Assembly (NCBI RefSeq): GCF_028368975.1
Contig: NZ_JAQNDM010000002.1
Span: 6,132,425-6,196,424 of the forward strand
Length of the DNA: 64,000 nt
Reading direction: 5' to 3'
Source: Stigmatella ashevillena
Lineage (GTDB): Bacteria > Myxococcota > Myxococcia > Myxococcales > Myxococcaceae
The first letter of the stretch is position 1, and each line of letters starts with the position of its first letter. The notes under the pieces were generated by a model. That model saw nothing but the letters and a program-made list of their open reading frames with translations. It ran no database searches and had not been told where the DNA came from. Both the position numbers and the translations under genes were made by a program. Below are positions 13,110 to 19,971 of this stretch, one piece after another.

Positions 13110-13616
13110 CTAGCGGCCGGTGTGGATGTGCTTCTGGCCGCGCTTGGCCTTGAAGACCTGCTTGGGGGCCTTGCCGGGCTTGGGCGCCTTGGTGCGCTTG
13201 GCAGCGGCGGCCGGCATGGTCTTGCGGCCCGCATCCCGGCCTGCCCCCAGCGGCACTTCGATGGGCGTGGCCGGGGCGGCCTGTCGAGGCTGCTTCGGGA
13301 GCGACGGCGAGGCGCTGGCCGGCCCGGTGGAAATCACGCGTTGAGCGGGCGCGGTGGGCGCCTTCGGAGCCGTGGCCGTCTTCGGCGCGGCGGGCGCCTT
13401 CGAGGCGACGGCCTGCTTCAGCTTGGCGGCCTTGGACGAACCGCGGCCGAGCTTCTTCTGGATCGTGTCCACCGTCTTCACGGCGGCCACGGTGGTCTCC
13501 ACGATGGCCCGCGCGCCGCGAGTGCCGGCCTTGGCGGCCACTTCCGCGCTCCGGGTGCTCACCCGGGCCGCGGCCTTCTTCACCTTGTCCACCAGTCCAC
13601 GCCTGAGCGTTGCCAT
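13110..13616 (-). CDS. Lys/Ala/Pro-rich basic protein, histone H1-like composition
   Basis: The start at 13616 (MATLRRGLVDK) is chosen because AGCGAGG lies 6-7 bases upstream; the open frame extends 13 codons further. The 168-residue protein has an N-terminal amphipathic helical half (VDKVKKAAARVSTRSAEVAAKAG) and a low-complexity C-terminal half of Lys, Ala and Pro (KAPAAPKTATAPKAP; RTKAPKPGKAPK) ending in HIHTGR. The composition resembles histone H1-like or HU-tail proteins, so nucleic-acid or nucleoid binding is plausible but unproved. No enzyme motif is present. It is divergent from the macro-domain gene, with 109 bp between starts. Confidence 0.65.
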   Translation of the reverse strand: MATLRRGLVDKVKKAAARVSTRSAEVAAKAGTRGARAIVETTVAAVKTVDTIQKKLGRGSSKAAKLKQAVASKAPAAPKTATAPKAPTAPAQRVISTGPASASPSLPKQPRQAAPATPIEVPLGAGRDAGRKTMPAAAAKRTKAPKPGKAPKQVFKAKRGQKHIHTGR

Positions 13617-13725
13617 GACCAACCTCGCTTTTGAGAAATCTGGGTTTGCTGCCAAAGGTAGTCATGAAGCAGTGGGTGGGAAGCGGGGGACATGCGGTTC
13701 GATTGCTGCCACACTGGCAGTCTCC

Positions 13726-14259
13726 ATGAGACGGGTGCTTTGGCTTGGAGACATCACGACGGTGGCGGCGGATGCCATCGTCAACGCGGCGAATGAGTCG
13801 CTCCTCGGCGGCGGAGGGGTTGACGGCGCCATCCACCGCGCGGCGGGGGAGCAACTCCTGGAAGAGTGCCGGACGCTCGGAGGGTGTCCCACGGGCGAGG
13901 CGCGAATCACTCGGGGCTACCGGCTGCCCGCGCGCCACGTCATCCACACGGTGGGGCCCCGCTGGCGCGGCGGGGGACAGGGAGAGGCAGAGTTGCTGGC
14001 ACGCTGCTACCAGAGTGTCTTCGCGCGGATGGAGGAGCACGGGTTGCGCACGGTGGCCTTTCCCTCCATCTCCACGGGCGTCTACGGCTACCCCATCGCC
14101 CAGGCCTCGCGCATCGCGCTGAGGGAGATTCACACGGCGCTGGAGCGCAGGCCGGCCCTGGAGAAGGTGACGGTGGTGCTCTTCAGCCCGGGAGACTTGC
14201 AGGTGTACCAGCAGGCCCTGGCGGACATCACCGGCGCCCCGGAGGGCCCCCCGGGGTGA
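13726..14259 (+). CDS. Macro-domain protein (ADP-ribose binding/hydrolysis)
   Basis: The 177-residue protein is a single macro domain. Visible motifs are GDITTVAADAIVNAANESLLGGGGVDGAIHRAAG (adenine and distal-ribose loops), CPTGEARITRGYRLPARHVIHTVGP, and the phosphate loop PSISTGVYGYP. This is the MacroD/YmdB arrangement, whose members remove ADP-ribose from acidic residues or hydrolyse O-acetyl-ADP-ribose in the cytoplasm. ATG at 13726 fits the family N-terminus (VLWLGDIT). The next gene starts inside its stop codon (GTGA at 14256), so the two are translationally coupled. Confidence 0.9.
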   Translation: MRRVLWLGDITTVAADAIVNAANESLLGGGGVDGAIHRAAGEQLLEECRTLGGCPTGEARITRGYRLPARHVIHTVGPRWRGGGQGEAELLARCYQSVFARMEEHGLRTVAFPSISTGVYGYPIAQASRIALREIHTALERRPALEKVTVVLFSPGDLQVYQQALADITGAPEGPPG

Positions 14260-16814: not shown

Positions 16815-16857
16815 AGCGAGGGCCTGCCCTGATGAGGGGTGGGCCCTTCGCCTTTTT
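16815..16857 (+). terminator. Rho-independent terminator
   Basis: A hairpin of GCGA(A)GGGCC type (left arm 16816-16825, right arm 16841-16851, one bulged base) is followed by TTTTT at 16853-16857. It ends the small GxxxG-protein unit just before the methionine S-methyltransferase-like gene. Confidence 0.7.
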
Positions 16858-16896: not shown

Positions 16897-19800
16897 ATGG
16901 CCACCTACCCTGAGTCGCCCCGGGAAGCCTTTCATCAACTGCGCGCCCTGTCCGAGCGGCTCGCCGAGCCCGCACGCCGTCCCCAGGCCCTCGCCGAGTT
17001 GAGGGCGCTGGCCGAGCTCTCCCGCGATCAGCCCGAGGGCGCCCCGCTGCGGCTGACCTCGGTGGTGGTGGCGGTGGGCTCCTCTCAAGAGCGGCTGGAG
17101 CTGCTCCTGCTGCCCTCCATCTTCGCCCCCGAAGCCTGGGCCCATACCTTCCTGGAGGGACTGCTGAAGGTTCCCCTCGACGAGTACGCGGGCAAGCGGC
17201 TGGTGGAGGTGGGCTCGGGCTCGGGGTGGATCTGCCTGGCGCTGGCCCGGTTCACCCGGCTGGCCCATGTGCTTGGGGTGGATCTCAACCCCCACTCGGC
17301 GCCCCTGGCGTGGTGTAACGCCTGGCTCAACGGCGACGAGGCCCTGGTGTCACGGCTCTCCTTTGGCGAGAGCGATCTGTTGCGCCAGGTGCCGATCCAC
17401 GAACCGTGGGACTTCGTGGTGGGGTGCATTCCCCAGGTGCTCCGGGGCGAGGGGATGCCGGCCGAAGTGTCTCAGTCGGACGAGCAGGCCCTCTATGACT
17501 TGTCCAATTACTGCGCGATCCAGAACGTCTACGAAGACCACTTCGGCCTGGGACTCAACGCGCGGTTGCTGGACGAGGCCCCCGAGCGCCTGTCCCCCCA
17601 GGGACGGCTGTTGCTCAACCTCGCCGGGCGGCCCGGGCGGGCCATCATCGAGCGCATGTTCACCCGGCGCGGCTTCACCACCCGGGTGCGGGTGGCCCGG
17701 CGGGTGATGCAGGCGGCGGACACGGACATCCGCCCGCTGGTCGTCCTGGAGCAGCGCACGCGGCGCGAGTTCGAGTTCTTCATGGACGCGCACAGCCCGG
17801 AGCCCCTCCGGGCCGCCACCGCCCTGGGGTGGCTCTCCGCGGGCCACCCCATCTGGCACGAGGTGGCGGTGTGGGAGGCCCGGCTCGCGTTGCCTCGCGA
17901 GACGCTGGCGCTGCGCTCCGCCCTGCGCGAGCTGGGCGTGCCCGGGTTGCAGGAGGAGTTGGATCTGGCGAACGCCCCTCCGGAGCAGCTCGGCTTCGTG
18001 GCGGCGCTCACCGAGCGCCTGGCCCGGACCCCCTTGTTGCCCTATGCGCACGAGTCCGGAGACCGCACGCTGCGGCAGCTCGTGGCGCGCTACTTGGGAC
18101 GCTTCTTCGATCTGCGGCTGTCCGAGGAAGAGATCTTCGTCGCGCCCGAGCGCGAGCAAGCCGTGTACTCGCTGCTGCTGTCCACCTGTGACGAGGGGGA
18201 TGGCGTGCTGGTGTCCCACAACCTGCACGCCGTCTACGCGCCGGTGCTGGACAAGGCGGGGGTGCGCGTCACCGTCACCCACAACACGCTGGGAGAGATC
18301 CGCCAGCTCCTGAGCGCCTTTGACGTGAAGGTGGTGCTGCTGGCGGTAGAGCCGGGCGAGCGCGCGAGCATGGCCGAGCTGCGCGGCATCCTCGCGGAGG
18401 CAGAGCGGCGGGGCATCCTGGTGGTGCTCGACGAGAGCGCCTTCTTCAACATCACCGCCGAGGTGGAGCCGCGCACGCTCTTCGAGTTCCTCGCCCGCGA
18501 GCCGCACCCCTCGCACCTGGTGGTGCTGTACGGGCTCATCAAGAACGCGGTGTTTCCGGACTGGGAGCTGACGTTGTTGTTGCCGGTGCCCGCGCCGCTG
18601 CGGGCGGCGTTGGAGGTGGCGGCGGAGGTGACGTACTCGCGCATCAGCACGCTGGTGCAGTGGTTCTACGAGCGCACCTTCGCGGAGCTGCTCGCCTTCC
18701 GAATCGCCTTCGCCGAGCCGCCGCCGCCCCCCGAGCGCAGCACACCCCAGGTACCGGCGCCCCGCTCCCGGCGCATCGCGCGGTTGGAGGCCTTTCCCGC
18801 CTTCGCGCCCAAGGTCTTCCGTGAGGAGGACCCGGAGCTCATCCGGTTGGATTACGGGGAGAACGAGTCCCCGCTGCCGCCCCCGCTGATGGAGGGGCTG
18901 GTGGCAGCCTGTGCGGCGCCGCGGGATGCGGGAGACCAGCATGGGTTGGCGGAAGCGGTGACGGCCTTTCTGCTGGAGACGCGGGGTGTGCGCTACGAGC
19001 CGGGGGAGATCACCCTGGCGCCCGGCGTGTGGCCGTTGATGCACCACCTGGGCGTCGCGCTGCGCCGGTTGCTGGGGCGTGCGCCGCGCGTCTTCATCGC
19101 GAAGCCCTGCTACGGCATGTTGCCGCCCACGTGGGATGCCGTGGGGGCGGAGCTGGATCTGGCGCCGCTGAGCGCGCTGTCCGAGCGCCGGGGGGCGAAC
19201 GCGCCCGACGTGGTGGTCATCTCCCAGCCATCCAACCCCGTGGGCAACTACCTGTCCCACGAGGAACTGGTGGCGCTGGCGGCCTACGTGGTGGAGGAGC
19301 GCTGCTGGTTGGTGTCGGATGAAATCTTCGGGTTGGTAAACCTCAGCCATCCCACGGCGGAGACGGTGCACGGCCCGGTGGGGCTGGAGGCGACAGTCCC
19401 AGGCATCGGGGCGAGGACGGTGGTGCTCGGAGGCCTGTCCAAGGAGTTCGCCGCCGGAGGGCTGCGAGTGGGATGGATGGCGGCGCGAGACAGGGCGTTG
19501 ACGGAGGCGGTGAGGCAGAGTTCGCCCGGGGCGATGCATCTGGCCACGGCCCGTGCGGCCTCGCGGTTGTACGTGGCGTACGCACGAGGACCGGATGGCA
19601 AGCTGCTCTACCCCGAGCGTCACCAGGCGCTGCGCGAGTTCCTGGCGCACATGAGAAGAGACCTGGCGGAGAAGAGGGCGCTGCTGGCCGAAGCCCTGCC
19701 AGAGGACGGGCTGGGGGAGACGGTGCAAGCGGGGGGGCTCTTCCTGGCGCCTCGGATGACGTCGTGGCTGGGCCGGGAGGTGGAGGGCGTGAAGCTGACG

Positions 19801-19971
19801 CGGGAGAACCTCCCGGCAGTGGTGTACGCACACACGCATGTGGTGCTCAACGGCGGGGAGTGGTGTGGAGAGCCCGAGCGGGTGCGCGCGGTGTTCTCAC
19901 TGCCCCGCGACAAGGTGCAGCAGGCCAGCGAGCGGCTGAAGGCCTTCGCTCAGAAGCTTCGGGGGATATGA
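16897..19971 (+). CDS. Methionine S-methyltransferase-like fusion (SAM methyltransferase plus two aminotransferase-like modules)
   Basis: The 1024-residue protein has the architecture of plant methionine S-methyltransferase (MMT, about 1070-1090 residues), which makes S-methylmethionine from Met and AdoMet. Residues 1-340 form a class I methyltransferase: VEVGSGSGW near 103, VDLNP, and VGCIPQ near 175 in place of NPPY. Stretches that match plant MMT as I recall it are LSNYCA, FGLGL, GRPG, MQAADTDI and FEFFM. Residues 385-1024 form two PLP-aminotransferase-like modules; the first carries GLIKN (K549) and the second ISQPSNPVGNY, SDEIFG and GGLSKEF (K849, Schiff-base position). The gene stands alone between a terminator and a protease gene. 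Methionine as substrate is inferred from family resemblance. Confidence 0.82.
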   Translation: MATYPESPREAFHQLRALSERLAEPARRPQALAELRALAELSRDQPEGAPLRLTSVVVAVGSSQERLELLLLPSIFAPEAWAHTFLEGLLKVPLDEYAGKRLVEVGSGSGWICLALARFTRLAHVLGVDLNPHSAPLAWCNAWLNGDEALVSRLSFGESDLLRQVPIHEPWDFVVGCIPQVLRGEGMPAEVSQSDEQALYDLSNYCAIQNVYEDHFGLGLNARLLDEAPERLSPQGRLLLNLAGRPGRAIIERMFTRRGFTTRVRVARRVMQAADTDIRPLVVLEQRTRREFEFFMDAHSPEPLRAATALGWLSAGHPIWHEVAVWEARLALPRETLALRSALRELGVPGLQEELDLANAPPEQLGFVAALTERLARTPLLPYAHESGDRTLRQLVARYLGRFFDLRLSEEEIFVAPEREQAVYSLLLSTCDEGDGVLVSHNLHAVYAPVLDKAGVRVTVTHNTLGEIRQLLSAFDVKVVLLAVEPGERASMAELRGILAEAERRGILVVLDESAFFNITAEVEPRTLFEFLAREPHPSHLVVLYGLIKNAVFPDWELTLLLPVPAPLRAALEVAAEVTYSRISTLVQWFYERTFAELLAFRIAFAEPPPPPERSTPQVPAPRSRRIARLEAFPAFAPKVFREEDPELIRLDYGENESPLPPPLMEGLVAACAAPRDAGDQHGLAEAVTAFLLETRGVRYEPGEITLAPGVWPLMHHLGVALRRLLGRAPRVFIAKPCYGMLPPTWDAVGAELDLAPLSALSERRGANAPDVVVISQPSNPVGNYLSHEELVALAAYVVEERCWLVSDEIFGLVNLSHPTAETVHGPVGLEATVPGIGARTVVLGGLSKEFAAGGLRVGWMAARDRALTEAVRQSSPGAMHLATARAASRLYVAYARGPDGKLLYPERHQALREFLAHMRRDLAEKRALLAEALPEDGLGETVQAGGLFLAPRMTSWLGREVEGVKLTRENLPAVVYAHTHVVLNGGEWCGEPERVRAVFSLPRDKVQQASERLKAFAQKLRGI

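Follow-up and report, generated by a model that had tools for sequence, protein, structure and literature searches.

What is the function of a protein that appears to join a methyltransferase to two aminotransferase-like modules in one chain, and what might the aminotransferase part contribute? The question is raised by a gene in the window analyzed here, a stretch of 64,000 nucleotides from Stigmatella ashevillena. The gene is predicted to encode a Group III (plant-type) methionine S-methyltransferase (MMT). We consider it fairly likely, from sequence comparison and structure models, that this enzyme makes S-methylmethionine (SMM) and that its C-terminal region forms a pseudo-dimer with a single composite site for pyridoxal phosphate (PLP), housed in the second aminotransferase module. 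The gene and its three parts, with the evidence for each, are as follows.

16897..19971, + strand: gene for Group III (plant-type) MMT, 1024 amino acids (open reading frame; family present in Myxococcaceae, Bdellovibrionota, and other lineages; AlphaFold2 model).
16897..17892, + strand: MmtN-like methyltransferase domain dependent on S-adenosylmethionine (SAM), residues 1-332 (matches to 7vvv; residue counts).
17974..18699, + strand: AT1, a truncated fold-type I aminotransferase large domain, residues ∼360-601 (VIA-align, hhalign, residue counts).
18751..19965, + strand: AT2, a full fold-type I aminotransferase module, residues 619-1023 (VIA-align, profile, residue counts).

The Gene and Its Methyltransferase Domain

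The open reading frame (16897-19971, + strand) begins with ATG and is uninterrupted over 1024 codons for amino acids, and its translation contains every motif quoted in the initial annotation: VEVGSGSGW, VGCIPQ, LSNYCA, FGLGL, MQAADTDI, FEFFM, LIKNAV (K549), and GLSKEFAAGG (K849). LSNYCA, FGLGL, MQAADTDI, FEFFM, and the KN/SK sites are presumed to resemble their counterparts in plant MMT. The combination of motif set and frame is not due to chance, because 60 of the 145 genomes searched in the order have a relative (E ≤ 1e-60), in nearly all cases over the whole length; a wider search of 195 genomes from the phylum (E ≤ 1e-40) recovered the same 60. The 10.95-Mb host genome, in two contigs, has one full-length MMT copy; its five remaining matches are remote and cover only part of the protein. 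A second methyltransferase match in this genome (L005) lies in a 292-residue PrmC-like open reading frame.

AlphaFold2 modeled the whole chain with a pLDDT of 87.1 and a pTM of 0.85, low confidence being confined to residues 182-210 (pLDDT < 50) and 603-605. Pfam detected only Aminotran_1_2 (PF00155, E 1.8e-31), in two stretches, and among the best 25 of 67 NCBIfam matches there were remote aminotransferase-type models, none above its cut-off. A single-sequence search against solved structures matched MmtN (7vvv) at residues 76-333 (E 2.7e-11) and many aminotransferases, some near residues 379-513 and most inside 635-1022. No MMT was present among the best 60 of 201 PDB sequences in a profile search.

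A profile of 20 methyltransferase rows, built without one relative (L061) in which this domain has decayed, matched MmtN 7vvv with an E value of 2e-27; the next-best solved relative scored 1.2e-10. The GxGxG motif is present as GSGSG at residues 106-110. In the sections of Peng et al. (PMC9135737) covered here, the METHYLTRANSFERASE residues of MmtN that contact SAM include D69, S101, L102, and C121. These align with D129, D160, L161, and C177 of the window protein, which are conserved in 21/21, 20/21, 20/21, and 19/21 rows, respectively; D160 takes the place of S101. The methionine contacts of MmtN fare less well and count against our assignment: E127, R132, and E250 fall at insertions or non-conserved positions, with R183 opposite E127 and both R132 and E250 inside insertions of the profile alignment.

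The lack of clear conserved counterparts to these three residues raises the alternative that the protein, though related to MmtN, has another specificity and methylates a thioether or a nitrogen other than that of methionine. The same sections of PMC9135737 (section 14) report dimethylsulfoniopropionate (DMSP) from only one of four Group III MMT strains tested, which would also fit a different substrate. Nevertheless, MmtN is by far the strongest solved relative, and Peng et al. describe most SAM- and methionine-binding residues as highly conserved in MMT (PMC9135737, section 12). We regard a different substrate as improbable. The window protein is, as judged from sequence, a real and well conserved plant-type MMT of an already known kind, and the myxobacterial enzyme very probably makes SMM. 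By homology, its N-terminal domain would bind SAM and methionine and methylate the methionine sulfur to give SMM, presumably through proximity and desolvation, as has been proposed for MmtN.

Two Aminotransferase Modules and a Predicted Composite PLP Site

In the whole-chain model AT2 superposes on prephenate aminotransferase (6f5v_B) with a VIA-align Z-score of 41.0 and a root mean square deviation of 2.4 Å over 370 aligned residues, and its profile matches 1dju with an E value of 3.3e-41. AT2 has the catalytic set K849 (the PLP lysine), D808, N780, R857, and R997. The VIA-align matches to the whole model cover AT2 almost exclusively, and the stretch containing AT1 (residues 325-628) was therefore folded separately, giving a pLDDT of 84.6. 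Foldseek matched this separate model to aminotransferases (E 1.2e-14) with query TM-scores of ∼0.6; the deviations were large because regions beyond the common core do not superpose. VIA-align likewise found aminotransferases, with Z-scores of up to 19.8 across ∼200-240 residues. These matches mostly span positions ∼40-290 (ends at ∼270-310) of chains of 360-400 residues, indicating that AT1 consists of the large domain and that the small C-terminal domain is missing. Aligned with each other by hhalign, AT1 and AT2 gave a probability of 97.6 and an E value of 4e-12, with K549 opposite K849; the two modules are homologous. AT1 carries Y383, G388, R393, TYSR at 579-582, and K549, a lysine that is not universal in the family. 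Six C-S lyases among 50 VIA-align matches to the whole model start at model residue 384-385, adjoining Y383. The comparison with MmtN, the profile comparison of AT1 with AT2, and the structure models all agree with the domain plan proposed in the initial annotation, an N-terminal SAM methyltransferase followed by two aminotransferase-like modules.

In fold-type I aminotransferases one subunit provides the lysine, Asp222, Asn194, Arg266, and Arg386 of the active site, and the partner subunit provides Tyr70 and a segment near residues 292-297. The corresponding residues were counted in 26 rows, comprising the 21 of alignment A3 plus L097, L100, L102, L103, and L091; the counts leave out L098 (a split gene, possibly an assembly frameshift), L099, and other relatives that are incomplete or gapped, as well as 15 more loci of the Myxococcaceae type. 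The AT2 residues are close to invariant: K849, D808, and R857 are each found in 26/26 rows, S848 and R997 in 25/26, and N780 in 24/26, so that the annotated lysine in the Schiff-base position of the second module stands. The partner-reaching residues are conserved in AT1, with G388 and R393 in all 26 rows, Y383 and R582 in 25, S581 in 24, T579 in 23, and Y580 in 22. The AT1 lysine K549 is kept in 17 rows and lost in nine, the keepers including 11 window or Myxococcaceae-type rows and five Bdellovibrionota rows. In the alignment AT2 has no conserved tyrosine at 672-683, and its stretch at ∼875-882, the counterpart of TYSR by extension of the AT1-AT2 alignment, is variable. N780 and S581 are changed in the same two rows (L060 and L061) and in no others.

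Because AT1 and AT2 each retain one half of the job, we infer one composite PLP site per chain; the complementary conservation points to a fused pair with a single such site. The C-terminal two thirds of the protein would thus be an intramolecular aminotransferase pseudo-dimer, in which AT2, with all its catalytic residues, would hold PLP on K849. AT1, being truncated, would take the place of the second subunit of a homodimer, lending Y383 (the equivalent of Tyr70) and TYSR. As to the ligand, our guess is that the AT2 site may handle the product or a substrate of the methyltransferase (SMM, methionine, or SAM), either as a transaminase or lyase or as a sensor.

Besides the methionine contacts discussed above, several observations weigh against this model. 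The lineage of the window retains both K549 and D512 in AT1, which therefore shows no obvious sign of inactivation in this group. AT2 catalytic residues are altered in two of the 26 rows (L060 and L061), and in L061 the methyltransferase has decayed too. Close relatives with 73-77% identity to the window protein supply ten of the 26 rows, and the window itself one more, so the residue counts are not independent. Nor did a PF02574 search of the host genome reveal a stand-alone homocysteine methyltransferase that uses SMM: the one match lies within a 1200-residue frame that is probably MetH. Nine other MMT genomes have one match each, eight of them in frames of 885-1385 residues and one (G196) in a frame of 359 residues. 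With nearly all matches in long frames, and that of the host probably MetH, a plant-style SMM cycle is not evident. Finally, the genome G518, whose AT1-AT2 pair is described below, is possibly incomplete.

The retention of K549 and D512 in this lineage suggests an alternative arrangement in which each module builds a complete PLP site of its own, so that a chain has two active sites. It would fit the presence of K549 in 17 of the 26 rows and its alignment with K849. However, AT1 is without the C-terminal small domain, which in ordinary aminotransferases carries the arginine that binds the substrate carboxylate, and AT2 is without the partner-reaching tyrosine that an AT1 site would need. Two complete sites are therefore quite improbable, and we retain the single composite site as the preferred arrangement.

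A more serious alternative, although still an unlikely one, is that in Group III MMT both modules are vestigial or structural, acting as a scaffold or as an allosteric sensor of methionine or SMM, and perform no PLP chemistry. MmtN, which has no aminotransferase part, still produces SMM, according to the portions of PMC9135737 covered. Several AT2 residues have been lost in two of the 26 rows, L060 and L061. At the L061 locus (L061:8013-10934, the same locus as L028:6070-8991) the methyltransferase is missing the loop between CIPQ and GLGL as well as a glycine of the GxGxG motif; several aminotransferase residues are changed, and the reading frame is still open. A pure scaffold, however, would not need K849, D808, and R857 in every row across several phyla, with R997 in all rows but one. 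It is also at odds with genome G518, in which a 636-residue frame (L097:7179-9086) encodes an AT1-AT2 pair without a methyltransferase domain. Y383, TYSR, K849, and the other counted residues are intact in this pair, and the AT1 lysine is lost. No family methyltransferase was found near it (tblastn best E 0.006), and elsewhere in G518 there are only weak matches to the family methyltransferase (best E 4.4e-7).

If the composite site is catalytic, Group III MMT might be bifunctional, the methyltransferase making SMM and the AT1-AT2 site converting it onward, for example by transamination to dimethylsulfonio-oxobutyrate or DMSP-aldehyde or by C-S cleavage to dimethyl sulfide. We hold this possibility only tentatively and think it rather doubtful. 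If true, it would explain DMSP in a bacterium that has MMT but no linked downstream genes, and it would mean a second, overlooked reaction for plant MMT. The passages covered assign no role to the aminotransferase part of MMT. In a cited study volatile selenium rose tenfold in E. coli fed selenomethionine; the authors' account, in the part covered, is that the methylated product is a precursor of volatile selenium, and a bifunctional enzyme would also give such a rise. The composite-site model narrows the role of the tail to a short list of residues (Y383, K549, R582, and K849), and bacteria supply both the whole enzyme and a stand-alone AT1-AT2 pair for its study.

Distribution, Variants, and Genomic Context

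Beyond the order, relatives were found in 6 of 290 sampled genomes from the phylum of a Bdellovibrionota relative, one of them split, and in 8 of 46 genomes from the class to which the genome with L064 belongs, several being partial. A scan of public genomes with two peptide patterns gave 38 loci, mostly from Myxococcaceae and three of them weak (L069-L071). The remainder included Bdellovibrionota/Oligoflexia (L059, L060, and L067), a Myxococcales metagenome-assembled genome (MAG; L034), deltaproteobacterial MAGs (L064, L065, and L068), and MAGs labeled Proteobacteria (L049 and L061). Two patterns applied to viral contigs matched 74 stretches, none of which encodes an MMT relative. In a 24-row tree the window and ten other rows form a fully supported group (100/100), of which nine are titled Myxococcaceae and one Comamonas; within this group the sequences are consistent with vertical descent. 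The deep branches are long and unsure. The MMT of the record titled Comamonas sp. KCTC 72670 (L048) sits among Myxococcus sequences, and this record is probably mislabeled or mixed. The actinobacterium Longispora albida has a nearly full-length MMT (L066:7866-10844), possibly acquired by gene transfer, whose long branch lies close to the Myxococcota rows.

The architecture also varies. In three deltaproteobacterial MAGs (L064:3436-8172, L065:2661-7403, and L068:3287-8686) MMT is preceded by ∼600-800 extra N-terminal residues, and this part had no significant Pfam match in the two proteins scanned (L064 and L068). A 2449-residue frame (L099:145-7491) has MMT in its first half, and the ∼1150 residues that follow show another, weak methyltransferase-like match. 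In one genome of the Bdellovibrionota sample (L098:777-3840) MMT lies in two overlapping frames with the break near the end of AT1, reflecting either a frameshift or a real split. Genome G502 has a methyltransferase-only relative in a 905-residue frame (L101:6272-8986); a different contig of this genome breaks off within an MMT (L091:1-2118).

One further feature lies just 5′ of the MMT gene.

16818..16848, + strand: terminator-like stem-loop with 13 pairs and a T-rich tail (weak).

Support for this element is weak because three such stem-loops were observed in the region against 1.7 ± 1.6 in shuffled sequence. A conserved gene cluster around MMT was considered and rejected: the open reading frames of at least 90 residues within 7000-29000, other than frames overlapping MMT, had no tblastn match (E ≤ 1e-15) to any of the 38 loci, whose flanks are in several cases short. 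Genes on either side of MMT encode, among others, a macro-domain protein, a cupin, a glucose/sorbosone dehydrogenase-like protein, and an S15-type peptidase, and none of these has a known connection to methionine. The macro-domain protein (13354-14259, + strand) matches PF01661 (E 2.5e-47) at frame residues 143-255, and the first 140 residues of its frame may be spurious.

Comparison with Known Systems

The proposal in the initial annotation that the myxobacterial enzyme represents a new route to SMM does not hold. Peng et al. (2022, PMC9135737), who cite Williams et al. (2019) for Group III MMT, state in the sections covered that some Deltaproteobacteria and Oligoflexia have a plant-like MMT with the domain structure of the plant enzyme. 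The family of the window protein is present in those groups, and the idea of a new bacterial route was therefore rejected as already in print. Its companion statement, that described bacterial enzymes of this activity are much shorter, is correct for MmtN Groups I and II and incorrect for Group III, on the evidence of the same sections. Those sections also note that predicting what MMT does in bacteria is difficult. Spartina MMT is treated in the part covered of PMC11464771, and the covered parts of PMC9667741, PMC11306096, PMC13360808, and PMC5395565 contained nothing on bacterial MMT. In literature on MMT with aminotransferase domain, pyridoxal, or PLP as terms, the titles and abstract openings listed mentioned no tandem or composite aminotransferase. 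Searches that paired methionine S-methyltransferase with myxobacteria, or that used peptide strings of the protein, found no paper, and S-methylmethionine with Myxococcus returned only a review of ribosomally synthesized and post-translationally modified peptides. The bacterial MMT itself is thus already known, and the new part is the reading of its tail as a tandem with a composite site.

As in the window protein, Group III MMT carries its aminotransferase region C-terminal to an MmtN-like methyltransferase in a single long polypeptide, and the scans place this architecture in Myxococcaceae, other Myxococcota, and Bdellovibrionota. The portion of the published description covered has one C-terminal aminotransferase domain, compared with the two modules found here. 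The MmtN enzymes of Groups I and II (Roseovarius indicus; 7vvv, 7vvw, and 7vvx) share the methyltransferase domain, with SAM-binding positions that align and D160 in place of S101. However, MmtN has ∼305 residues and no aminotransferase part, whereas the window protein has 1024 residues in three modules. In addition, the genes of MmtN Group I cluster with DMSP genes, according to the sections covered of PMC9135737, and the window neighborhood shows no such genes.

Among aminotransferases, AT2 shares the whole fold and the catalytic set of the fold-type I prephenate and aspartate enzymes (e.g. 6f5v and 1gd9). 1-Aminocyclopropane-1-carboxylate synthase (1m4n and 3piu), which acts on the sulfonium compound SAM, is also among the AT2 matches (Z-score of 37.7 for 3piu). 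Its E values and Z-scores are within the general run of aminotransferases, and it was dropped as a special relative of AT2. Fold-type I aminotransferases are usually homodimers of one complete module. The window protein differs from them in joining a truncated module to a complete one in tandem.

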